DNA from: Spirogloea muscicola
Taxonomy: Eukaryota > Streptophyta > Zygnematophyceae > Spirogloeales > Spirogloeaceae
Reading direction: 5' to 3'
Length of the DNA: 21,463 nucleotides
Assembly: GCA_009602725.1 (NCBI GenBank)
Contig: WELB01000351.1
Location: 63,947 to 85,409 of the forward strand
Below, in pieces: positions 4,887 to 21,463 of the stretch (position 1 is its first letter; every line of letters begins with the position of its first letter). Both the position numbers and the translations under genes were made by a program. The notes under the pieces were generated by a model that searched no databases, was not told where the DNA came from, and saw only the letters and a program-made list of their open reading frames with translations.

Positions 4887-7800
4887 ATGGCCGCCGCTCT
4901 CGCCCCGCGGGCCGCGGCAACCGCGTCCACGCCGGGCAGCCTGCAGCTGGAGCGGTCGAGGCCTGCCGCTCCCGGCGCCGCCGGGCCGATCTCGCAGCAG
5001 AGTCGGCGTGTCTGCTTCGCCAAGCTGCAGCTGCAGTCTCCTTCCCAGGCTGCCAGCGTCCGTTGCCGGTTGTCCAGAAAGGCAGGACGCAGAGGTGTTG
5101 CTGTCATGGCCATTGCCGAAGCTCCAGCAACCGATGGTGCGTCACACTTGCCTTGAGCTGAAAGATGCAGCAGATCAGTAACACTGCCTCTTCTCTTCGT
5201 CCTTGGACCTCTACATTTTCTACATTGCTGTTAGTGCCAGCACGCACACCAGCACCAAATTGGCACGGCCTCCACCTGGTTTCTCAGCAGCCGCTCTGGT
5301 AGAAGCATGTGCAGGACCTGTAGGCAATTAGAGCTTCCGTGGAGTCCTCGTCACAATGCAAGAGGAGAGCTCACCATTACATTCTTTTTGCAGCAAGAGT
5401 GTTTAATTGTGTTGATCAGTGTTGACTTTGTTGAGGCAGTACATCAATTTGTAGGCCTAGGACAGGTTGGTAAGCTGATCTGGATGTCACGGCCATCCAG
5501 AGGGGCTTCCAATGTCATTCCCTGCCCTATACCAGGAGCCTTGGGAGAGCTCACCAGCCCGATCATGAGAAGTTTGGCAGCCAAGGATAGGTCCAAAAAT
5601 ATGATTACCTAGTTGTACTTGTTTGCATTCCTCCACAGCCATTGACCCAGCACTGCAGGACACTCTGAAGCGCGCCGTCGCTCAGAAGGCTGTCCAGCTC
5701 GTCAAAAACGGCAACATTGTTGGTCTTGGAACTGGGAGCACGTCTTCGATGGCAATCGAGGAGCTTGGGAAGCTGATAACCTCTGGCAAGGTAATGCTAG
5801 CTACTTATGAGAGATCATCGAGATATGATCTCTCACAGGCTTGCCTGCAATTCCTGCGGTGATGGGTCCAACTGTGCACGGATGAGATCTCTTATGCAGT
5901 CTGCGAGAAGAATCTATGAAGTTTGCATTTGCCAATTTGCTTGGTGTCTCAGTCGTAGTTGACTGATAGCTGGTGAGCTGAACAGCAGCACACCAGCTCA
6001 ATATGCACAAATGGTGTGTTGGTGGGCTTGATAATGGTGTGTTGGTGGGCTTGATAATGGCCAATTGTAGGGGTTCAGACAGAGCAGCATACGAGTGTTC
6101 TGTCAAGCAGAGACAATACTCTGAAGACCAAAACCTTAAATTTGCCTAGATTCACATTGATGTAAATTTGTTGCCAGTACTCAATTTCTTGGAAGTCTCA
6201 ATTTGCAGCTCAAGGACGTGAAAGGCGTGGCAACCAGCTATCAAGCAAAGGTGCTTGCTCGGCAATTTGGTGTACCTACGGTAAGGCTACCTCTTGTGGC
6301 GCATTGTAAAACGTGGAGTATCGTCAAAGGGCTGCAAATTCACATTGCTGTCTACAAAGACCTAGTGAGCCTCCAGTAAATGTGCGTGGTGTCTGCTGGT
6401 CAGTCATTCCTGCATTGCTTTTTTGTGAATGTAAGCAGCAGCTACTATTAACGCTTCTGTGATGACGTGCAGTTGGACCTGAATGACGTCAACCATATTG
6501 ACATAGCCCTTGATGGATGCGACGAAGTCGATGCTGATATGAATCTCATCAAGGTGCTGTGATCTGCCCAGGACGATTAAGCTTGACATGTTTTTACGCA
6601 CAAACATAGCTAGTCAAGCTAGTGTTAGCCAGGCTAAGGATGCTGCACTTCTGCAGCAGTAGCCTGAGACCTTTATCAATCTGCATTGGTGCAGGGAGGA
6701 GGTGCTGCTCACACCATGGAGAAGGTATACGTGACTGGTTGACAGTGATGAAGACTTCAGAATGCCTGTATGCAAGAATTGATGCACATCATATTTGAAG
6801 TTCTTGCTCACCCATACGCACGACTGCAGCATATTTCTGCTGTTCTTCACCGCTCAGGCTTGTGAAGTAGACCTTACTATCAGCAATCTTGGACTTCAGG
6901 TGATTGATACGATAGCTAAGGAGTGTGTCATATTGGTGGACCAGTCCAAGGTGGTCAAGAAGCTTGGTGTGAACTTCCCTGTCGCGGTGCAGACTCCCTG
7001 CATTCTCAGCTGTGCATGCTATCATGCATGCTTTCAGTGGCGCACACTTAAGCCACAAGAGATGTATTGCGAAGGAACTTTCATTGTCAATAGCCTACAC
7101 TAACGCTGTCAACTTTGTGAAGGACATTGCTGGTTGTTTGCTTCTCTTAGAGCAGATTGTCTATCATTGAGCAGCCTGACTGATTGTCAATATCTTGAGA
7201 AAGGAGGGACTGGATTTCTCCGACTGCCAGCCATTCTTTTGAGCTGGGCCTGCACTTGATGTGCATGATATCTGCCCTGACAAAGTTGCTACGTGTCTTG
7301 ATCAGGTGGAAGTGTTGCCTCCTGCCATTTCTCCTGTGATGAGGTCGCTACTCCAACTTGGAGGTGGTAAGTCAAGCTATTTGATTGTCAGCAGTACCTC
7401 CACATGACTTAATTCTTGTGGATATTAACATGGTATGCCGCCTCTTAGCATTTATCAGTCAACTTACTACCAGGACTTGATTGCAGTGTCCAATGTGTGC
7501 TATAGATTGCAAAATCATCAGTGCACTAGCTGCACGCAGAATGACAAAAACACCTTGTACACATTTTGATTGTTGGAGCGTGCTCACTTGCTTCAGCCCC
7601 TGAGATTCGGACTGCCTTGAGGAAAGATGGCCCAGTGATGACAGACCTTGGAAATATGGTCGTCGATGTCAGGTACTGCATCAGCTTCTGCTGCCCTCAG
7701 CAGTTATGGACATGCAGCTTCGAGTACACAACATGAGTGTTGTTGGCATCTGCTAATGTAGTCTCTTGGCATGTCGATGCCTCCAGCTTCCAGGATGGCA

Positions 7801-8097
7801 TCTTAGATGCTGCACAGGTGGAGAAGGAAATCAACAATATTCCTGGTGTTGTGGACAATGGTAAGTGACGCCTAGTCATCATTAGTGCCTCTCTTGTTCT
7901 TACATCAGAATATAATAAAACAGCGAGCAGGGTCTGGGATCCAGTGCCTCACAGCAAGGGCTGTGCTGAATACAGGGCTCTTCGTCAGGGTTGCGACAAA
8001 GGTGCTCGTGGCTGTCCAGGACGGTGCTGGCACACCCATTATGGAGCTTGCCGAGTATATAAAAGGCATTGAGCCCCCGCCTACACCAGAGAACTAG
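4887..8097 (+). CDS. RPI: Ribose-5-phosphate isomerase A, plastid-targeted (spliced)
   Basis: Interconverts ribose-5-phosphate and ribulose-5-phosphate in the Calvin-Benson and oxidative pentose-phosphate pathways. Ten exons: 4887-5136, 5639-5790, 6209-6280, 6473-6553, 6695-6724, 6900-6986, 7306-7366, 7597-7672, 7787-7860, 7976-8097 (1005 nt, 334 aa), all GT-AG and frame-consistent. ATG 4887 is the first Met after an in-frame TAG at 4743. The first ~80 residues are rich in Ala, Ser and Arg with few acids, ending near VAVMAIAEA, as in a plastid transit peptide. The RpiA core follows: GLGTGST at 112-118, DGCDE at 172-176, NLIKGGG with Lys185, and TMEK with Glu194. These match the catalytic Asp, Asp, Lys and Glu of bacterial RpiA. 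The usual Ala of DGADE is Cys174. A Pro-rich tail (PPPTPEN) extends the C-terminus. It converges on the minus-strand methyltransferase gene. Family assignment is firm; the plastid location is inferred. Confidence 0.93.
6010..6055. repeat. 23-bp tandem repeat in RPI intron 2
   Basis: Two exact copies of a 23-bp unit beginning AATGGTGTGTTGG (6010-6032 and 6033-6055), plus five bases of a third, lie in the 418-bp intron 5791-6208. A recent slippage duplication without visible function. Confidence 0.85.
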
Positions 8098-9076
8098 GCA
8101 ATAAGGTCATCCCCATCGGTCAACTTGTGGATTACAAAGGTGACGACGTGCAGTCAAGTCAAATGAGCACAAGTCTTATACCAATATGCACTACTTTATG
8201 GTAGCCCTAAGAGAGCCAACACTCTCATATCCCACCACGTGTGAGTGAATCACTTGAGTTGAAAATTTCGTTTCTTGGATCCCACATTGATTGATACCTA
8301 GGTGAAAGTGCCGCAGCTTTTCCGTAACATCATGGGTTTGGGGAGGATGGGGTGGAGGTTGGAGAACATGCATTGGCTGCATCGTTAAAGGCTGCAGAAT
8401 GAAAAGTTTGGTGTACATGCTGATGCCAGTACCGCTTGGCCGAGTCACTGCAGTGCTTAACAGTGCAGTGACCTGCTGTTTGAAGATTGACCTTAAGGCT
8501 AGAGTGGTACGTTCGTATTGACAGTTGTGCAGGTATGGAAGTTATTAAATGTGCCCCACAATCGGATGCTCCACAAAGATTTTAATGTGTGGCACTTAAT
8601 GTCTGCACTGGCTGCCCAGATCTTGTCTGACTAACCATGCGACAGCTGTTTTGCAAGCCCCTGATGAGTGGCTACTGAACTGTGCTTGCTGAGTCAACAA
8701 TAAGCTCAACAAGTCGATATGCATCACTACATGCGCGCCTGCTAGGCGGCCTCCCACACTTAAGGGGCTAAGGATTGATTCACCTATGAGCACACAGCCC
8801 CTGCCCAGCCCGCAGACGCACAGTCGACCTATGACGCCTTCTGACCCTATCTAGCTGGGCCATGGCTGCTAGGCGGCAGGGAGATGGGCAGCACCTGCTA
8901 CTGGAGGCTAAAAGCTGGCAGCCTGGAGAAGCAGACACGAATGGTGTGCTGTGGCGTGCTAATGATCTGGCTTTTTACCTTAAGGCAACCTTTACCTTTA
9001 CCATGACTAACACAACGCTTGCTGTGACTAACACCGACTCCTCACAACCCTTTGAACACACACTAACACCCTATAG
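8098..9076. other. Convergent intergenic gap with both 3' UTRs
   Basis: This 979-bp stretch lies between the RPI stop (+) and the methyltransferase stop (-). The only notable open frame, 8862-9209 +, overlaps the last methyltransferase exon on the other strand and resembles no known protein. A purine-poor, TGACTAACAC-containing stretch at about 9000-9075 would form the start of the methyltransferase 3' UTR. No RNA gene or clear repeat was seen. Confidence 0.6.
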
Positions 9077-12000
9077 TCAGCTGTCGTATGGGCCGACAAA
9101 CTTGACTGGCCGGTCTCGCAGCCACGTCATGAGCTCCGAGCCGCAGAGCGATCGCCCTGCCATCGTGGCATCAAGCATCGGGCTGCCATACAGCTGGCGG
9201 TTGCGGTAGACCCACAGCCACTTGTCATTGGCCTTCTGCCAGTGCTTCTGCGGCTTGTTCTCCTATTCACAGCAACGTACAGTGAAGATCGTTAATCACA
9301 CAGAAATATTGCAGCTGTGCCCACCTCTTACAGAAGCTTCCATTTGCAGCTAGCTGGTCACTGCTTTTGGTTAGATTGGTTCAGTACATCCCAAAGCTTC
9401 GCTCAAGTAAGTGCTTCTAGAGATCCAGACTGGCTAGAGCTTCCATTTGACCACCCAACAACCAGCAGATTGCCCAACTTCCAGGATCATGTATAGGTTG
9501 CTACTGTGCAAGCCCAATGTAGTGATGGTTAAATCACTTGAATCACTACGAACTACAATGACACTATACAAGTGACTCTTGTTCATGAGACCTCATAAAC
9601 GCTTTGGTTTAGGATTACGGAGCACCACAAGCTCCAAAACCCTCTGCTCCAGTCAGCAGGTTTTGGGGTGTTAGAGATGTGGGCCTCACCATCTTGTCAA
9701 ACATCTCCTTGCGCTGCTGAGGCCCGTAGGCGCGCATGACGGCCTGCTGCTGGTTCCTGGAGTAGCAGGAGGAGGGGTCAGGCAGCACGAGGCAGCCGCG
9801 GCGAGCAGCTGCGAGGCTGTGCCCGGGGTCCGCCACCGTCTGCTTGAACCAGTAGACGAGCTGCCCGAGAATGTGGTCTCGGTCGTATGTCTTGCTCCAC
9901 TCGCGGTCGCCGCCGTCCACCGCCGCGCCGCCGCTTCGCAGCCCCAGGTCCTCCTTGCGGATCACAAGGGGCGGCGAGTCGAAGGCGTCGTACTCCTGTC
10001 GAGCAGTATGATATCTTGATCAGGGGCAACACTTAGAATGCGTTGATTGCAGTACAAAGTAAGAAATTAAGCTAAGTTGAGCTCCATGGGTGTAACAAAT
10101 TCTACTCTTCCTAACTGCCTCTGTCACCAATAATGTACTAAAGCATCCTCAATTCGTAAGTATATCAGTTGGGTATATATCTGCAGAATATTGGCAGGCA
10201 CTTGTCCAAACCACACAGAAGTGATGGTTGACCTGCGTCGTGAAGAAGGTCTCAGTGTGCGCGTAGAGGTGGAGCAGGTCTGCAGCAGCATCGTGGCGAC
10301 TCACAGCTGACGAATCCAGTGTCAGCAAGTAGTCTCGCAACCTGATTACAACAACGAAGATCTTGTTACAATTTAAACCATCATCACAACCCCCTGGAGC
10401 CAATTTCACTTCCTGCATGACCATTCAACTATCTGCAGGTAATAGGACTAAGAAACAATTTCTCTTCATTGAATTCCAAAACACCAATCTTTAATGACTG
10501 ACCAGAGGAGGTTGATGCGGAGCTGCCTCATGCCCTCCGTCGTCTCGGGCACGCCGTCGCGACTCCGCACCTCCTGCCAGAGGCGCGCCATGGCCGCCTT
10601 CTCCATGTGCGGCGCCACGCACTTCAGCATCTGGTTCACGACCGACGCCTCCGACGACCCGTCGCCTGTCCAGAGCTTCTGGATCAGCTCGTGCGGCGAG
10701 AGGATGCGCAGCGGCGGCAGGCCCTCCTTGGCTTCCCCGTACAGAACCTTCAAGCAGTAGCGGACCTGCCAATGCCCATGTCCCAATAACTCAGCACTTT
10801 ATGCCTGAGACAACCTCTTTTGCTGCGATAGTCGGCAATACAGCATTCACACAATCTCACAACCAAGACTTCTACCTGTACCCCATGTATAATACTTATC
10901 TCCACTTGCAGATTGTGATGAGAATCTAGAAATATGCACGTTATCTCCACTTGCAAGTTGTGATGAGAATCTAAGTAATATGCACAACGGCTCGGTGATA
11001 ACCAAGTCAATAACTCAAACACAAGAACAACTGAGGAGGCGCATGCAGGACCCAAGCTGCCACTCTGTGCCTCACATGAGGCGACATACTAGCCGCTCAA
11101 CCCCAGCCTTTATAGAGCCAAGATGGCTTACCTTGTCCAGCGTGATGGCCAGGTTCTGAAGCCGCGACAGCCAGACGCCCTCGGCTTGCTCCTGCGCCGC
11201 CTCCAAAGAGTCCTCCCCATCGTCTTGCAACCGCTGCATGGGCCGCCGACGGCCCTTGCGCCCCTCCTTGTAAAGGATCGCAGGCAGCAGCTTCCTCTCC
11301 TCGGCAATGAACTCAACCTGAAGCAGTGCAAGTGAATGAGGGACAGGCACCAGTTGAGGAATAATGCTTGAATATATTGGCAGGGGTTTTGCAAGGGTTT
11401 CTGTTTGGAGATGGTCTCTGGGGCTTCAACTCAAGATCAAGATCTGAACTGTTAGCTACTGCACAAGCAACAATATGTTGTAGACAAACAATTGCTCAGC
11501 ATATTGGAGCAAAAATAGTACATCAAGGAGATGGAGCTATTGAGGGACGCACCAGCCGCGCCGCATACTTGACAGCCCAGTCAGGCAGGTCATTCAGCAG
11601 GCACTTGCCAAAGCCGCTCTTTGCGAGCTGCTCAAGCTCAGCTGCAGTGACGCCTTCCTTGGAGCTGCAGGCCTCAAGCAGCATGCGATGCCGGTCCAGC
11701 AGCCCATGGTGCTCGCTAATGACCTGCAATAGAAGGCATTTCAAAACAGATGTTCAAGGCAATGACTTGGTCGGTGTTTGGTATGACCAGCTACCAGATT
11801 GCTAGGGAATTGCCTGTCATTCTTAACCTCCTCAAGCACTTATATCAATCTAGCTGTGCATGCATAATCAACTTAAGCTGTGCCCCTGGAGACAAAAGCG
11901 AAGTCCTTCGAAGAAGTCACAATTCTTTGATCAAGGATTCGAGATGCTGTGTGCTGCAATAACAATCAAATGTACATGTCCAAAGTGGACTGTAGGCAAT

Positions 12001-15000
12001 ACCTGCTGGAATGTGGTGGCGCTGTTGAGGCTAAGGTAGCTCCCCTTGCAGAGGCGGTGGCCACACAAACACACAGCCTGCTTGTACTCCTCCTGGCTCT
12101 GGAAGGGGCCCGTCACACAGCACAGCAGCACTTGCCCAGATCAATAAGGGCAGGCGCTGCATCACTGAGGTACACAGTCTTCTTGCTAGAATGGGTGCTT
12201 AAAGCTTAATTAATTATAAATTGCTAATCAGTGTACACCTAACATAATCATCACTACCAGGCACTGCCGCTGTGCATTATCTCCTCAATTGTCTACACAA
12301 TCGCAACTGGACAAAGTATCTGTGGGATACCTCAGTAACAGAGTTGTAGTCAAAAGTGAGCTCCTCGCCAGGCAGTATCTGCCGCAGCGTGTAGACACCA
12401 ATCATGTACTTCCCATCAACGGCCGTCACCCTGCTCAATAGAAAAACAACAATTCCCAGTCAGTAACTATGTCGGGAAGCTATTTGATACGCAATTCAGC
12501 AGCATGGCCGAGAGCTGCCAGCACCATGAAGCTCTCACTTTAACTGGGTTTTTCGCTCAATAATGGAGATCCATAGTTGGCATGCAGCAAGATAAGCGTG
12601 TGGGCTATTGACCAGCCTTCACTGCCTGGCCACCTACTTGGCTTCGCAATTGGGTCTGCATGAGTGGCATAGGCGGCTGGCGAAGTTGGCTTTGTGCATG
12701 GCGTCGACGATGAGCACATCGTAACCGGCGGCATCAGCCTGAAGCAGCACAGAGACGAAGCTCAGCCAATGTCAGTGCCATCGAGCATGCACACTATGAC
12801 TCACACCCAAGCAATCGCGTAAAGGTTTAGAATAAGGTTCAGAATAAGGGGCTGTGCATGCGATCTCAGCTTTACGGATGCAGAAATATGGACCGAAGAA
12901 GAGAAACACAAGCTTCTGTTCCTCTGAGCAAGTGAACCTTGGGGCGCTCAAGGTAGATATTATAGAACTCCGTAACAGACTCCTTCTTCTGTATGAAGCG
13001 TATGCCATCTTGCTTCTCAAACCACCGCCAGGGCGGGTACACCTGCACATACAAACCCATCTCAGGATAGGCTATAAACTTGCTCATGTACCCTTAGCTA
13101 ACATCGAACCCATATAACAAGGAAACCAATACCTTCAGCTGTAGGTAGGCAGCTTCTCAGCCAGCCAGATGCACAATCTGACCCAGCTTCAGCAAGCGCG
13201 AAGGCATCCTAGGACCTCAGCTCACCAGACATGAATTGACTTGAGCGCCAGCATGAGGCAACAAAGACATGCTCAAGAGCAGACGGCTGACCTCGCCAAA
13301 GAACTCCACAACGAAATCATCGCGGTTGAAGCCATCGGAGGAGTCGCAGATGACGCCCAAGCCCTTCCGGTATGCATTGTACTTATCCTTTGGGCGGGCC
13401 CGCATATTGGCCAGGAGGAGCGTCGTGAAGGTGCCGAGGTGGCTGTCCCCTTTCTCTTCAGCCTCTTTGATGACCCGCTCCATGACACGGTCGAGCGGCA
13501 GCTCCATGGGCGCCTTCAGCTCTCCTCCAAACATCTGTGCCTCCTTGTTCAGAGCCAGTAGAAGTGTCTGCAGGAGTATGGAGGAGCTCAGAGACATGTT
13601 AAGTGAGGATGACTTATGACCTGTGATTACTATGTTGATAGTGACTGTTACTTCCTCAGGTCGAAGATTTCAGGGCTCAAGCCTTGATTGCCTCAAGGTG
13701 AGGGCCTAAGAACCAGGAGAAGGCTGCCCTGTACTCTAAATTGTGATTTCACATTAGTGACCCTGTAATGCAGAATTGAGTAGATTGCGCACACTGCTCG
13801 AGGGCAAATTTGCAGCTTACAGGATATTTCAAGAAAGCATCTTCACTAGGCTTTGCCAGGACCATTAGAGGAGAGAATGTAACCTCCTCAATGAAAGCGT
13901 GTTGATCTTCCTGCTCCAAGAAGCCCATATAATTGCTCGGCATGGTGTCTAGAAGGAGATTATGAGTGAATGGGTCGATCCCATACACCTCCTGCTCCAG
14001 AACCTCCATGCCAAGCACCTTACGCGGCTTCGGCTCTTTAAAGTCAGGAACGTCGAGATGACAATACTGCTCAGCATTTGCCTGACACAAACGAATATTG
14101 AAGCAGTGCTCACATATCAGAACTTAATCCGACAAAAGGCCTGAAGCAACTAAGTCACATTCCATGACTAGCTAAAGGGCCACATCAACGGCACTAGCAA
14201 CTATCCTGCTCGTATGCACAAAACCCACCATATGTGAAGTCAAAGCTAGGCAACACCACTACAACGAGTGCTGAACCAATATCAACGACAACCCTAAGTG
14301 ATACAACCACATTAGCACAACCATGGACAAGTTTCCCACTCACAAAAGTCTGCGCTGTAAAGAAGCACAGACATGCACCTCAAATAGAGATCAATTCGTC
14401 GACGAGCTCGGCGTGTGCACATTAGCAAGCAAATACCAACATCACCTTGCTTTCAGTACTACAAGCATGACCTGGCATGAGCCCTAGAGAATGAAGCTCA
14501 CCTGAGGATGACTTGAATCCGTGTAACTCTCCAGAAGGTGCACAACCATCTTCTGTTGAACCTCCTCCTCCTCCTCCACAATGACGTACTCATTGATGAC
14601 CTGTTGATGGAGCTAAACTGCCATGAGCCAGTTGACTATGACCTTAAAACATAACCACATAGCACTCAGACAAGCAAATTGCCACGTTCCTTCACAGCCA
14701 AAGGAATGAAGACTCAATGCTGCCAAAGTATGGGTTGGAGAATGCATGCACTCGTGGTTCCGCTTAACAATTGGGTACCTGTTTCAGAACCTTCAGGAGG
14801 AGTTACTCAAGGCTTACCTCGTATTTTCTGGTTATGGGCGGCACCATTGCCTTGCTGTTCATGCTGTTGCCCCAGGCCTTGCGCTTCTGGCGCTCCTCGG
14901 CACCAATGCCCATCTCCGCGCACCGCTTCTTCCACTCTTCCTCCTCCTTTTCTTCTATCTTCTTGGCCTTCTCCTTCTCCCTTCTCTCTACCTCCGCTGG

Positions 15001-18000
15001 CTCTGTGAGGAACTCTGTGAAATCCTGCTCACATACTTGCATCCTGTGTCAGTCTAAGATCAATATGGCCTCTTGCCTAGCCAAACACAAGACAGATGGA
15101 CAGATAAACACATCTTCATCGGGCACAGTGAGAGACTGTTGCAAAGTCAATATACAGCGACTATGCATCTAATCTTCGTTTCCATCAGCAAAAGGCCTTC
15201 CAAAAGCAAGACATTTAAAGGACAGAGCAGCCCAAGCAGCAATGAGTTGCTGCAAGGCCAATCCAGCAGGCTTTAGTTGCACAGAACAATTAGAGACAAT
15301 CAATTTAGAAGATTCTCACATCATCATCAGTCTCGGACCCTGAGCTCTCGTCCTCGTCCTCCGACTCTGACCAGGGATTCCTCTCCACGACTGTCTGCCT
15401 TTCACGCGCGATGCCCTTTCTCCGTGCGACGTCATCCTCTCCGCTGTCGTCAACGCTGCCATCTTCCTCTTCCGAGGAGCTGTTCTCGTCCCTTCTCCTC
15501 TTTCTGCCTGGCTTTGTCAACACCCCTTCCTCCACCTTCCGCCTTCTCCCTGAAGAATTGCTCGAAGGCTTGGCTTTGATGAGCACGCTCTTTGTCCTGA
15601 TAGCACGGTCAACAAAATATACTCCGACACATCAGTACATCCTGATCACCAGGGAATCAGAGTATCTACTAGAGCACCACCCCAGATGCCGCAGCTTCTT
15701 AAAAATATGTGCCCACCTGCTTAGATCTGGTTGTATAGCCTTTGTAAATGCAGCATTCAGTCGATGATTCTCTTTGAAGAGCTCTGTTGCATGGTTGTAC
15801 AAGGGGCTCTTCGTGCCCAGATTCATCTCGCACCTGTGGTCACAGATAGAGAGCCGAAATGTTATTGACTTTATGGACTTGCCAATGCAAGACAATCAAT
15901 GCATGCTTCCTGTGGGTCTTACATGCACTGCAGCTGTCACATACATTGCAGCTATGAAATATGCTCTTGGTTGGGCTTTGTGGGGACATACTGCCAGACG
16001 TTGCGGCACATGCGGCTTATATCTGAGAAGAATTCATCTGCGGCCTTGGCTCCTCCAGAGTACACGCCCTCACGGAGCCGCTTCTCAATAAGAGAGAGGT
16101 CCATAGGCACCTTGATCTTTGCAGAGTATTTGGGGCAGACATCATCTGTCATTGGCTGCGTGAAGATGCGCCTCTTGTCCATAGCAACCAGCTTCCGGAG
16201 CACGCTCTCCAGCTCCCTTGCTATCAGTGTAACTTTTTCGCTTTTGTTGCTTGGTTGCTTCTCAGCGCTCCCCGGTTTGCTCCCCACCTTAGCTTTGTTA
16301 CTGGGATGACCGAGATTGTTTGATCTTGACCAACCAGCACCATTTGCGAGCCTAGCTCTGCCAACTCCACTTGATTGATAGGTGCTTCCGGGCATGGACT
16401 TCTGAAGTCCACCTGACGCCCTGTCCAGAGCATTCCCAGGTACGCTCCTCACCACAGCACCATTCTGGTAGAAGTCATGATTCAGGTTGTCAGAACTGGG
16501 TACTGCCTTCACGTGCTTCACGGTGGCAACACTCCACGACTTCTTCCCGCTGTCTGCAGAGAGCCTGGCAATCTTTCCGTTCCTGACTCCCGGCTTCATC
16601 CCCTCATCAATGAAGCAAATTTCCGGGTGCAAGTGAGGAAGGTCTCGGAGGTGAGCGCAGCCTGTGATGTCAAGCTCACTGATGGAAGGACAGGTCTGCA
16701 GGAGGCTTTCTACAGACTTCGAGGAGAGCTGCGTGCACTCCTTCAAGCACGCCCTCTTCAGCCCCCTGGGTTTCAACGCCTGGCACAAAGGCAAGCAGAC
16801 AGCATCGGGCTGGTGAGTGCAAGTAAGAGAATGGCACAGACGTTTGAAAGAGGTGTTTGCCAAGCAGCACTTGTGCGCCTTGATAGAGAGAAAGTAAGGT
16901 GGCCACTGCCTTTGACAGTCTGTCAGATTTTCACCACATACAGTAACAACATATGACCAAAGCATTGGAGGACAAAGTAGTGAGATGTCAGCTGATCAAA
17001 CCTGCAAGGAGGCAAGCGCTTCAGTCTGAGAGATGGTGCCGACATCTGACAGGTCCGCCCTCCTCAGCTCCGGCATGAAGTGGGTCACCGCCAAGCGCCA
17101 GGCCTTGCAGGTCGCCGAGGCCCTGACGAGGCTCCGCAGGTTGCCGCGCAGGCAGGCAAGGACCTGGACCAGCGCCGACGACGGCAGCTCCGCCCAGCCC
17201 TGGCCAGCCCCGCATTGGTCGCGTTGGCTATCAGCCCTGGGCTTCAGACAGTGGTCTACTTCAGCGGGGTCCGGAGTGGCGCCCAGGAGCCGCGCCTTCA
17301 TCGGCCTGCAATGGCCGCCTGCCGAACGCTGCCGTGCATCGCAATCTATGCGCCTGGCAACAGCGTTCAGGACGTCTGTGTCCTCCTCGCTCACTTTCGC
17401 CTGAGTGTCCCTGACGTTTGGCAATGACAGTGTTCCTCCCCAAGTGGCCCCCTTGTCCTCATCAGAGTCTGTGTCGAGTGTGCTCAACATGCGTCTCTGG
17501 GGTTTGTGACTGTCGTGGCTCGTCGAAAGCGGAGCCAGTGTGCTCAACATGCGTCTCTGGGGTTTGTGACTGTCGTGGCTCGTCGAAAGCGGAGCCACCT
17601 TCTCTGCCACTGGGGATTGTGGCACCGAGCTGCGAAGCTGGGATGTGGACTCAGCGCCTACTACCTCAGTATCGCTTCGAACATCAGCACCTGCCAAGGA
17701 GTACACAGATAAGATAGTCACTAATCCTGGCTTACTGCTTCAACCTTCAGCTCTGTAGAGGAGATTTATTTTGCAGGTCAGAACATAGCAACAAGGCTAC
17801 ACTACACTACACTTGGCAGTAGAGGCAATGAATGTAGGAGTGTGTACTGAAATGACACACTTCGCGAGAACTGCTTAAAGATGAACCATGGTCTACAGCA
17901 AATAAGTATGCCATCAGTTGCACCAACTTATTGTGGCATTCTGAGCAAAGAGCAACCTCTACATCCAGATCACGGCAGCCAGAGAGAACTCCAGCTGCTG

Positions 18001-21000
18001 CAAGATAGTGTGACTTACCATCAATCGACCTCCCACCGTCTGGCCTGACTATGGGGCCATTCTCAACAATGGCTGCCGAAACTGGGGACAGCGTGACAGA
18101 GTCCCTCCCATCTGGTAGCCGCCTGGGCACTGGACCCGGTGTCCGGCCATTCACCTGCCGAGAGCTACCAAGCCGATCGCTCAGGGCGTCCTTGAGGGCC
18201 GGCGCCAGGACCTTGGTGCGATACGCCGACACAACAGTCTCGTGAAGCTTCCAACGGACGTGCGCAGCAGAGCCCAGCGCGGCGCTTGGCTCTGCCCTGC
18301 GGCGGTGCCCACTGTCTGTCTCCAACTTGTTGCCGCTCTTCTGCGCTTGGTCGGTAGCAACCCACGAGTGCAGCACGCCGCCGTGCTCGGGTAGGAAGGC
18401 CCGCTGCTCCGCCGAGACCGCCGACTGCTGACTGTCCTCTCTCATGTCTGCGCTGCTCTGCTCTTGCAGTAGAGCCTCCTTAACGTCTCCCCAGCTCTGT
18501 GAGCCCGGCGAAGGTGCCAGCGCCGCACCCGATGGTGCTCTACCGGTGCCAGGAGAGGGCCGCGACAGGAGCGGCGAGGACCCCTCTTGCGATCCCCGGC
18601 AGCCATCGGCAGGCTCCGCCGCCATCGGCGGGGGCCCTTGGAGCGACCGGCCCTCTGGCGGCGGGCTGCCAAGCACAGCGGACTTGTCGCCAGCGTCCTC
18701 TCGTGGAAGCCTCGCCGCCACCACCAGCGCCTGCCTCTTGAGGACCTCCACGTTGCGGCGGGCCAGCGGCAGGATCTCCATCCGGCCTCCCCCCTCGTCC
18801 GCCCTCCTCAACACGGGCCTGCCAGCCCGCGGCGGGACGCCGGCCGGCTTCGAGCCGCCACCGCCGCTGGTCGTCCTGGCCTTGGCTGACGGCGACAGCA
18901 CCCGCAAGCCGCCCTTTGCCGATAAGCCCTGCTGCTTTGCCGTCTCGCCGCTGCTGCCACCGCCGCCAGTCGGCGGTTTGATGGCCGCTGGGAATCCCCT
19001 CCCCTTGCTGGGAGTCACTGCTCTTGGTGTGGAGGCCTGCGAGCGCGGCGTGCCGCCCTGCTCCAGCGACGGCGAGGACACCTCAGCGGCTCCTGGCGGC
19101 CGAATCCTCACTGACAGGCCGTGTGATGTGGCCGCCTCCAGGAGCGAGCTCCCGCTGGCTGCTTCAGTGGCCTTGCAGGCCCAGTCGGGCAGCGCCAGCA
19201 GCGCACCTGCCGCCGCCACCTCAGGCCTGGCTGCTGTCGGCGGCGGCCTGGGGTCGACCGCCCCGCCACTGCGCTCGAGGCACAGCGGCCGGCCGCCGTT
19301 GACGATGCGCTTGACGCCCTCCGCTGGCGCTCCGGCGACCTGCTCGGTGGTCTCCCAGCACCAATCCCCGCCCCGGAGCGGCCACAGCCCCGCCACGCTG
19401 CCGCCCCGTGACAAAGTGCCGCCATTGCCAACCACGGCAACCTCCTGCGGAGAAGCTTCTTCTTTGCACCGAGCAGACATCCCGCTGCCTCGTCCGCTCT
19501 CTACCTTGCTAACGTCCTCCTCCTTCATCAACTTAGCAGCAGGCGATGTAGCCTCCACAGCCAGTCCCGGAACTGGTGCTGCCGCAGCAGCTGTTGGCCC
19601 AGGCTTGCTGCCGAAGTCTGGATACTGCCACTGCTCTGCGAAGCCTGGGGCCCTCTGTGGCTCCTCGGCCACTCTGCATCAGCCAAGAACGTGGTAACAG
19701 CATGAGAGCTTGCAAAAGGCTTTCTCCCTGTTCTAAGAGTACTACCAATTCTGACAATACTCGTCCCACAAACGCTAAACCCTAGACCTTCACAACAACA
19801 ATAAGAGCAGCACTATCCTTAAGTGCCCTGCTGGTTGTGCCCGACACAAGTCAGCATCAAGAGAGCGGCACAGTTTCGCTCTACTATCTGGTGCGCTTTG
19901 TGTCCTGTATGCCATCTTCTGTTAGCAGGCTGTTACAACAGTGTAGCTGAGAAGCCCTCTGTAAGACCCAGACAAACCTAGATAAAGTTCATGTTGGAGT
20001 CATGACCAGCAACCCTATATTGAGTATTGCCAATGCGCCAAGCGCGACCACCTCACCTTCTGAGGCCCATTCAACGTCAGAATCCTCGGCAGCGCGGCGC
20101 GATGCAGACCGCAGCGCCTCTGCGCGAGGGCGACCAAGGAAGCCGGAGTCAGTGCTTCGGTGACATGCTGTCCTTAATGGCCAGTCAACAGACCAATTGT
20201 GAAGTCCAAACCCAGCAACAGTGCAGCAGGACCGTCACCAGTGACAATCTCTTTCTCATGGCCCTCGGCGCGTCGGAAGCCCTGCATGAGCTGCTCCACG
20301 CGACGGTCGATTGCCGCCAAGCCCTGGTCGACCTCCTCCTCCTTGCCACCAGCCTCTTGACTGTCTTTGCCGCCACCTTCCCTGCTCCCACTCTCCTCCG
20401 TTGCATCGCTGAAGCCGCAGTCGCTCAGTGCTGGCCCTGAAGCTCCGTCGTGGTCGGCCAACGGGACACTGACGCGATCTCCATTCGCCTCAGGGGCCTC
20501 TGGGTGGGAAGCGGCATTTGAAAGAGGAGGAGCTAGCGCCGCCAGGAACGCCACGCTGCTTGCGCCAGACCGCGGAGAAGGTGGCGGCAGCGGTGGAGAC
20601 GGCGGCAGCTGTGACCGTGGCAAGGGCGGTGGTGGCGGCGACTGCGCGTGCTCGAGTGTGAGCCACACGTTGCTGCCGCCGCGGCAGACAAGGTGGTCGA
20701 GCGGCAGCAGGCCCTGGGCGAGCCAGCGCTTGAGCTGCAGCAGCGGGAACGGGCCATGGAGCCCGCCGTCGCGGCCGTTGTAGAACCATCCGGGGCCGCC
20801 TTCTTCGCCGCTGCCACGGTCGTCGCCGCGGATGTGGGGACCCGCTAAAGCAGGGTGCTCGTCCACCACCGTGGAGGCGGCGGCGGCGAAGCTCCCCATG
20901 GGATGCCACCCCAGATTGCTCGCCGTTTCCGACGACACAGCCGAAGTGTCCTGGTTGCGATTGCGCGGGCTGCTGATGGCGGCGTGCCAAGGCCCTCGCC

Positions 21001-21463
21001 CGAGCCTGGCTGAGGCACTGCGCGGCGCCTCCTCCGCGACCGGCTCGTCGCCCCAGCTGGCATACCTCCCAGCGCCGACGGTAAGGTCGTCTAGATGGCG
21101 CTTGTCCCTACCGCCTCGGTCGCCGTTAACGCCTCGGTCGCCGTTAACGGCGCCGCAGCGACGGCCCTCGCCGCCGCCGTGCTTCCAGGCCGCGGCCTCT
21201 TCTGGCTCCCAGCGGCTGTCGGTGCCATTGCCGCCGGTGCTGCCTCGCAGCAGCCACTGGCGCTCGCCGCCTCCACCGCCGCCAGCTCCGGCGGCGGCCC
21301 TGGCCCAGGCCTGCGGCGTGGCGGCGGCGTGGCGAGGCGCCGGCTCCTGGCAGTTGGCCGCGACGTGGCCGGGTGCGCCGCAGCGGAAGCACTCGGCGGC
21401 GGGGCAGTAGCGTGCATAGTGGCCTGGCCGCCGGCAGCGCTTGCAGAGCACGCTCAGCGCGCC
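9077..21463 (-). CDS. ATXR3: ATXR3/SDG2-like histone H3K4 methyltransferase (5' partial)
   Basis: Predicted nuclear SET-domain enzyme of the plant family responsible for bulk H3K4 trimethylation. Exons, high to low: 21463-20239 (open at edge), 19671-18019, 17690-17002, 16779-15992, 15833-15717, 15596-15320, 15024-14818, 14600-14502, 14081-13884, 13567-13292, 13042-12938, 12738-12638, 12430-12331, 12098-12003, 11723-11553, 11317-11132, 10765-10503, 10341-10233, 9995-9690, 9262-9077. They sum to 7152 nt, exactly 2384 codons. Order of parts: two CCHC knuckles, GYF domain, low-complexity region, conserved helix (LHETVVSAYRTKVLAPAL), F-box-like/leucine-rich block, bromodomain-like region, charged linker, MVPPITRKYE, VLEQEVYGIDP, SET and post-SET, then the ATXR3 C-terminus (QAEGVWLSRLQNL, ending YDS). 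Length is close to Arabidopsis ATXR3 (about 2.3 kb of codons, from memory). The join 20239/19671 is the least certain. The start codon lies beyond the window. Confidence 0.93.
10896..10985. repeat. 45-bp tandem repeat in an ATXR3 intron
   Basis: Two copies of a 45-bp unit beginning TTATCTCCACTTGCA (10896-10940 and 10941-10985) with a few mismatches lie in the intron 10766-11131. Probably slippage; no function is suggested. Confidence 0.8.
12003..13363 (-). other. SET and post-SET catalytic core
   Basis: Spread over five exons (13567-13292 to 12098-12003). It shows the SET opening GLGVICD, the family motif YPPWRWFEKQDGIR, IYLERPK, the cofactor/pseudoknot motif RLCHSCRPNC, and GEELTFDYN with the catalytic Tyr. 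The post-SET cluster CLCGHRLC, with the Cys of RPNC, supplies the four Zn ligands. NHSC reads CHSC here, which I also recall in Arabidopsis ATXR3. All key residues are present, so an active lysine methyltransferase is expected. Confidence 0.93.
15746..16215 (-). other. Bromodomain-like region of ATXR3
   Basis: Starting at ELESVLRKLV, the frame reads FTQPM, then PKYSAKIKVPMDLSLIEKRL, then GVY and EFFSDISRMCRNVW. After the intron 15834-15991 it continues MNLGTKSPLYNHATELF. This follows the bromodomain order: Z helix, ZA loop with Y..I..PMDL..I..RL, D...M..N, then the acetyl-lysine-contacting Asn before SPLY..A..L. The usual YN is MN here, and the spacing to the preceding Asn is about two residues longer. 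Identified by pattern only. Confidence 0.75.
16609..17187 (-). other. F-box-like and leucine-rich segment of ATXR3
   Basis: LPSSALVQVLACLRGNLRSL followed by ASATCKAWRLAV has the Leu-Pro start and the SL..AS.TCK.W pattern of F-box-like helices. The next exon continues with leucine-rich turns (LKRACLKECTQL, ISELDITGCAHLRDL). Arabidopsis ATXR3 has the same pattern (CRHW, VDLSS, DITGC), from memory, so this part is family-conserved. No SCF role is established. The intron 16780-17001 splits it. Confidence 0.65.
17478..17597. repeat. Exact 60-bp in-frame tandem duplication in ATXR3 exon 3
   Basis: Positions 17478-17537 and 17538-17597 are identical over 60 bp. On the minus strand this repeats a 20-residue block (beginning APLSTSHDSHKPQRR) in the linker before the F-box-like region. 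The lack of any mismatch implies a recent event, or an assembly artefact. The reading frame is kept. Confidence 0.92.
20650..20795 (-). other. GYF domain
   Basis: The stretch starting GWFYNGRDGGLHGPF and ending near NVWLTLEHA has the Trp-Tyr opening, the GPF signature and the hydrophobic helix (LKRWLAQGLLP) of GYF domains, which bind proline-rich peptides. Arabidopsis ATXR3 has a similar WFYLD...HGP segment, from memory. It corresponds to fragment residues about 226-272. Confidence 0.8.
21112..21147. repeat. 18-bp in-frame tandem repeat in the first ATXR3 exon
   Basis: Two exact copies of an 18-bp unit starting CGCCTCGGTCGCC (21112-21129 and 21130-21147) encode a doubled VNGDRG hexapeptide in the linker between the zinc knuckles and the GYF domain. 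The frame is preserved. Confidence 0.85.
21350..21445 (-). other. Two tandem CCHC zinc knuckles
   Basis: Fragment residues 7-38 contain CKRCRRPGHYARYC and CFRCGAPGHVAANC, both fitting C-x2-C-x4-H-x4-C exactly, ten residues apart. Such knuckles bind single-stranded nucleic acid or proteins. They lie in the same uninterrupted reading frame as the GYF domain further on, so they belong to this gene and not to a retroelement Gag. Confidence 0.9.

Follow-up and report, generated by a model that had tools for sequence, protein, structure and literature searches.

A constrained, atypical bromodomain-type module predicted within an ATXR3/SDG2 homologue of the alga Spirogloea muscicola

An ATXR3/SDG2-type methyltransferase gene of Spirogloea muscicola appears to carry an atypical bromodomain-type module, placed after its F-box/leucine-rich block and ahead of SET, that is constrained as SET is, and we lean, with modest confidence, towards a role for it in docking the enzyme through a non-canonical ligand. 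We hypothesize that the module would fold as a four-helix bundle and tether the enzyme, at a point near SET, to chromatin or a partner, with H3K4 methylation laid down where its ligand is. A peptide, either unmodified or presented in some other manner, or else a neighbouring domain would be a more probable ligand than an acetyl-lysine gripped in the canonical way. Coordinates refer to the window, the whole stretch of 21,463 nucleotides that was analysed (C351:63947-85409 of a 153-Mb assembly of 471 contigs, which was the scope of the genome scan), and all features of the gene lie on its minus strand.

The gene enters the window at its open right edge (21463), its start lying beyond, and ends with a stop at 9079. 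A script applied to an alignment of three genomic copies produced a single stop-free model (27 exons, 2336 residues) that joins the bromodomain to SET and SDG2_C and includes three doubtful tiny exons (14600-14544, 14483-14460 and 13186-13183). Pfam scans of the first open frame recovered two CCHC zinc knuckles at the 5' open end (21347-21448; zf-CCHC, 33.9 bits in two stretches, cut-off 20.8) and a GYF domain at 20651-20788 (GYF, 25.8 bits, cut-off 25.7) that also matched the ATXR3 type, by a thin margin (GYF_ATXR3 PF25531, 27.6 bits, cut-off 27). Further along, in the model's last 1542 residues, the scans recovered, in order, F-box-like, Bromodomain, SET and SDG2_C. The F-box-like motif (17086-17196; 28.8 bits, 26.1 in the spliced model, cut-off 24.3) is followed by a leucine-rich-like block in which no leucine-rich Pfam family was matched. 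The SET match spans several exons (12343-12949; 50.3 bits, cut-off 22.4, profile positions 43-105) and contains ASRLCHSCRPNC and GEELTFDYN, with the N-terminal part of the domain (KYNAYRKG, FVVEFFGEV) at 13384-13289. SDG2_C occupies the exons leading down to the stop (9083-12077; 474.3 bits, positions 2-419 of 420); a PDB search with one of its exons returned no matches, and a scan of the viral-contig collection with an SDG2_C exon found no relative. Given GYF_ATXR3, SET and a near-complete SDG2_C in one gene, it is an ATXR3/SDG2 homologue. We note separately that an F-box-like motif above the Pfam cut-off within a histone methyltransferase raises a possible link to ubiquitin ligases, and that a 20-codon tandem duplicate (APLSTSHDSHKPQRRMLSTL; 17595-17476), mostly intronic according to the gene model, is present in the window copy and single in the copy on contig C245.

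The bromodomain was recognised by Pfam (PF00439) in the spliced protein at 15833-16209, a span that includes a 158-base intron, with 48.4 bits against a cut-off of 21.7; scores ranged from 45 to 52 bits depending on the construct (45.3 in the long model), with E-values of 9.3e-13 for the spliced protein, 5.5e-13 for the open frame and 8.6e-12 for the long model. Searched against PDB, the domain found 73 distinct sequences at E<=0.01, the best at 1.5e-8 (9tsm, a 'putative bromodomain protein'), and its other neighbours included BRD9, BRD7, BRD1, CECR2, ATAD2 and BPTF. A scan of the spliced domain against NCBIfam matched 0 families, and the genome-contig and viral-contig collections contained no relatives of the bromodomain exon (collections without a plant set). 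The signature of human bromodomains, as given in the accessible portion of PMC3326523, consists of a ZA-loop Tyr, P-phi-D, an AB-loop Tyr and phi-x-x-D-phi-x-x-phi-phi-x-N-phi-x-x-Y/F, followed by the acetyl-lysine Asn. The window bromodomain reads Y (16128), PMD (16107-16099), Y (16062), then FFSDISRMCRNVWQ with the helix-B D at 16023 and N at 16002, and then C-E. The initial annotation had called this segment a near-intact bromodomain in an ATXR3/SDG2-type methyltransferase, with the full bromodomain order. Its quoted motifs are all in place (PKYSAKIKVPMDL at 16134-16096, LIEKRL ending at 16075, DISRMCRN at 16023-16000 and MNLGTKSPLYNHATEL at 15826-15779), and the profile match above cut-off in a gene with SET and SDG2_C bears out the domain call. 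As to order, helices Z, A and B and the ZA loop are recognisable, but the match covers only profile positions 2-70 of 84 and Cys-Glu closes helix B; 'near-intact' is thus too strong, since the match stops at the junction and the usual Tyr-Asn pair is replaced.

That junction lies inside the domain. One exon (15992-16779) encodes the end of the leucine-rich-like block, a linker, helix Z, the ZA loop, helix A, the AB loop and helix B, and ends at a GTATGT donor found in all three copies, in agreement with the gene model. The intron (15834-15991, 158 bases) is 75-80% identical between copies and contains an indel, with near-invariant exons on either side. The following exon (15717-15833), entered through a CAG acceptor that is likewise kept in 3/3 copies, encodes the end of helix B, a long BC loop and a presumed helix C, and a single amino-acid position in it varies among the three copies. 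The donor, the acceptor and the gene-model script all place the junction (16779-15992 to 15833-15717) where it had originally been proposed.

Where the domain ends is less sharply drawn. Both the Pfam match and a match to a local profile stop at the exon-junction residue, and the five PDB alignments examined end one residue before it, ahead of the BC loop. A piece running from helix A to the end, searched by itself against PDB, found no bromodomain at E<=10 and two matches at E 1.6, neither of them to a bromodomain, from which we conclude that the bromodomain signal depends on helices Z, A and B in combination with the ZA loop. ATAD2B and BPTF gave weak matches over the whole domain, known by their match coordinates only, which reach beyond the BC loop (to query residues 109-114) and so pull in the opposite direction from the helix A-to-end result as far as a putative helix C is concerned. 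When 21 registers were scored for helix C, the highest value was 2.8, a score equalled by 0.05% of 11,768 background 18-mers (about 1% allowing for the number of registers); the register that had been quoted at the outset, from SPLYNH, scored -3.4, and two registers compete. A structure model of a 99-residue piece of the first exon, computed with no alignment, had a mean pLDDT of 48.6, too poor for a fold search, and its helices sit at the expected positions of Z, A and B. We regard the bromodomain call as a strong prediction for helices Z to B considered jointly; a chance match is ruled out by the E-values together with the constraint described below.

The pocket departs from the canonical form. 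In an ungapped extension of the helix-B signature, and in a MAFFT placement, Glu (codon 15827-15829) takes the position of the Asn that anchors acetyl-lysine (N140 of BRD4), an assignment that assumes a gapless helix B; in the same frame the nearest Asn, that of MN (15821-15823), lies two residues past the canonical slot and could serve instead. The Tyr-Asn pair that anchors acetyl-lysine and closes helix B is therefore read as Cys-Glu in the window, and the Cys and the displaced Asn occur in 3/3 copies. The AB and BC loops are also longer, by four and three residues. For comparison we used five frames (L001-L004 and L007) from the 17 non-ATXR3 bromodomain matches listed for the genome; the L003 frame equals that of L002, L004 and L007 are partial domains, and Tyr-Asn occupies the site in all four distinct frames. 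The signature script matched three of these four, missing L002 at one hydrophobic position. The shared frame of L002 and L003, 370 codons long, lies on contigs C66 and C89 at loci that differ elsewhere. According to the available text of PMC5977933, 13 of 61 human bromodomains have Tyr, Thr or Asp instead of the Asn, and Glu is absent from the replacements named there for human atypical bromodomains, a point against the atypical-pocket reading.

With the gripping Asn off its usual place, the module may not be an ordinary reader of acetylation; the missing aromatic-Asn pair lowers the case for an acetyl-lysine reader and leaves that for the fold as it was. The proposal with which the analysis began, an active reader tying H3K4me3 to acetylated chromatin as in MLL-type proteins, accordingly loses ground on two counts: the canonical Asn is absent in 3/3 copies where the four other distinct frames of the genome have Tyr-Asn, and the MLL bromodomain itself has Asp at the slot, with normal acetyl-lysine binding doubted (PMC3326523, in its accessible portion), so that the MLL comparison counts against the claim. 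It could be restored if the lengthened BC loop let the Asn of MN swing into the pocket, in which case H3K4me3 would be written on acetylated chromatin. The ZA-loop Tyr, PMD and helix-B Asn are retained and tightly constrained, as such a reader would need, and a link of this kind exists in trans in Tetrahymena, between an acetyl-binding bromodomain protein and an 'Atxr3/SET1-like' methyltransferase (available part of PMC5844071). Against it, the shift of the Asn by two residues and the Cys in place of the preceding aromatic are common to all three copies, and we consider this outcome unlikely, if the most serious competitor. The case for acetyl-lysine binding by the algal module is weak, and the data are better matched by an atypical bromodomain kept by selection than by an ordinary reader; Glu at the Asn slot and the longer BC loop make a non-canonical ligand the likelier one.

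Selection on the module could be gauged because the ATXR3 gene occurs in three collinear copies, on contigs C351 (the window), C371 and C245, 85-88% identical across the gene; the 21 listed SDG2_C matches all fall on these contigs, and each copy has a Pfam bromodomain (52.4, 49.8 and 53 bits), among 20 such matches listed for the genome. Near-collinearity extends over 6882-21463 for C371 and from about 8000 upward, within the compared stretch, for C245, and the introns can be aligned. Collinear copies with alignable introns point to genome triplication, and the three copies fit the triplication of S. muscicola cited in PMC7994812 (as seen in the available text). Light-harvesting proteins encoded in the genome likewise suggest a streptophyte: one frame matched its sixteen best PDB chains, most of them named Lhca4 or P4 and of land-plant origin, at 270 to 248 bits and two truncated chains at 227 and 220, before the score fell to 186 for 7yca, from a green alga; a second frame was closest, behind a 620-residue polyprotein, to 8htu and 7xqp, both from moss. 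For the three copy pairs, dN/dS in the bromodomain was 0.05, 0.09 and 0.11 (0.08, 0.11 and 0.17 over a wider slice), against 0.09, 0.06 and 0.05 in SET, 0.08, 0.06 and 0.07 in SDG2_C and 0.27, 0.24 and 0.20 in the linker preceding the bromodomain, values that are coarse because only three close copies were available. Elsewhere the same pairs gave 0.37, 0.40 and 0.48 in the disordered middle, 0.29, 0.16 and 0.46 in the F-box/leucine-rich block and 0.08, 0.42 and 0.15 in GYF. The acidic linker behind the bromodomain is also constrained (0.10, 0.11 and 0.15), so low dN/dS alone does not single out the bromodomain. Five of the 109 bromodomain positions vary among the copies, and the exon changes are mostly synonymous. 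There is strong evidence that the bromodomain is constrained about as tightly as the catalytic SET domain, with dN/dS below that of the linker before it.

The same data bear on whether the domain is a structural leftover, a bromodomain-like fold that binds no ligand and merely scaffolds the SET module. In its favour are the atypical pocket and the lack of a bromodomain signal from the helix A-to-end piece by itself, but the constraint is spread along the domain at a SET-like dN/dS, and we judge this improbable. A misread splice, in which a retained intron or another acceptor gives helix B a different end (VWQYVP when unspliced), is very improbable and was rejected: the unspliced sequence scores slightly above the spliced one (49.1 versus 48.4 bits with Pfam, 53.8 versus 50.0 with the local profile), but the GTATGT donor is what supplies its Tyr and Val codons, its frame in the window reaches a stop 12 codons past the junction codon, and it shows non-synonymous change from copy to copy, in contrast to the acceptor and the following exon, which are conserved.

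ATXR3-like proteins of four angiosperms, one rice protein excepted, are described by DUF4339 in PMC6986063, whose available text does not contain the word bromodomain; the accessible part of PMC3264562 marks only SET in the ATXR3 class, and 'bromo' is absent from it and from that of a poplar SET study (PMC3402991). A putative land-plant ATXR3 fragment had no Pfam bromodomain, shared IE.R..G.Y and DISRMCR with the window, and aligned locally to the window domain with a score above those of all 2000 shuffles. If this fragment is faithful to the land-plant protein, the two segments share ancestry and the one in land plants is degenerate; the decay of a bromodomain in land plants, as the initial annotation had suggested, is a lead only. 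ATXR3/SDG2 is the major H3K4me3 enzyme of Arabidopsis (PMC3402991) and its placement has been described as co-transcriptional (PMC9372134), both as stated in the available texts. We tentatively propose, as an idea that may well prove wrong, that ATXR3 began as a bromodomain-SET fusion, that a reader with an acidic pocket is still strongly selected in this alga, which stands close to the root of land plants, and that the land-plant remnant, immediately upstream of SET, is an unrecognised bromodomain fold aiding placement at transcribed genes; the algal module would predict a hidden remnant of this kind in land-plant ATXR3.

Animal MLL (KMT2A) and ASH1L resemble the algal gene in being methyltransferases with a built-in bromodomain, and differ from ATXR3 in SET class and domain order; they differ further in that no PHD finger was found in the scanned parts of the algal gene. 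In MLL, as in algal ATXR3, the residue at the Asn position is acidic (PMC3326523, accessible portion). In the apicomplexan SET1 family, Cryptosporidium cgd8_2730 combines SET with PHD, bromodomain and post-SET; it belongs to another lineage, and neither GYF nor SDG2_C is named for it in the available text (PMC9487757). Bromodomain and SET in one protein are therefore already known, from the published portions available for MLL, ASH1L and Cryptosporidium SET1. The bromodomain protein Ibd1 of Tetrahymena recognises H3K9ac/K14ac as well as acetylated peptides of H4 and H2A; it was co-purified with the methyltransferase that its authors call 'Atxr3/SET1-like' and, unlike the algal fusion, is a separate protein acting in trans (PMC5844071, available part). 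Over helices Z to B the nearest PDB sequences are those of BRD9, BRD7, BRD1 and 9tsm, at 38 down to about 27 bits, from which the algal domain differs in its longer AB loop (four residues).

For a bromodomain within ATXR3 itself, we found no earlier description in the accessible text of the literature on ATXR3/SDG2 and bromodomains: PMC9824250, PMC3797736, PMC6954211 and PMC5972625 do not place one there in their available parts, and PMC10970695 was discarded as a source on SDG2 and bromodomains, its 'SDG2' occurrences, in the text available, being SDG26. Nor is a histone-reader domain named in the available text of the ATXR3/SDG2 literature we found, and a constrained bromodomain-type module beside SET offers a concrete recruitment candidate for an ATXR3 homologue. 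The closest known system remains plant ATXR3/SDG2 (KMT7-class), with which the algal gene shares GYF_ATXR3, SET and a near-full SDG2_C in one gene, and to which it adds an above-cut-off bromodomain and an F-box-like motif that set it apart from the plant proteins as described in the accessible parts of PMC6986063 and PMC3264562.
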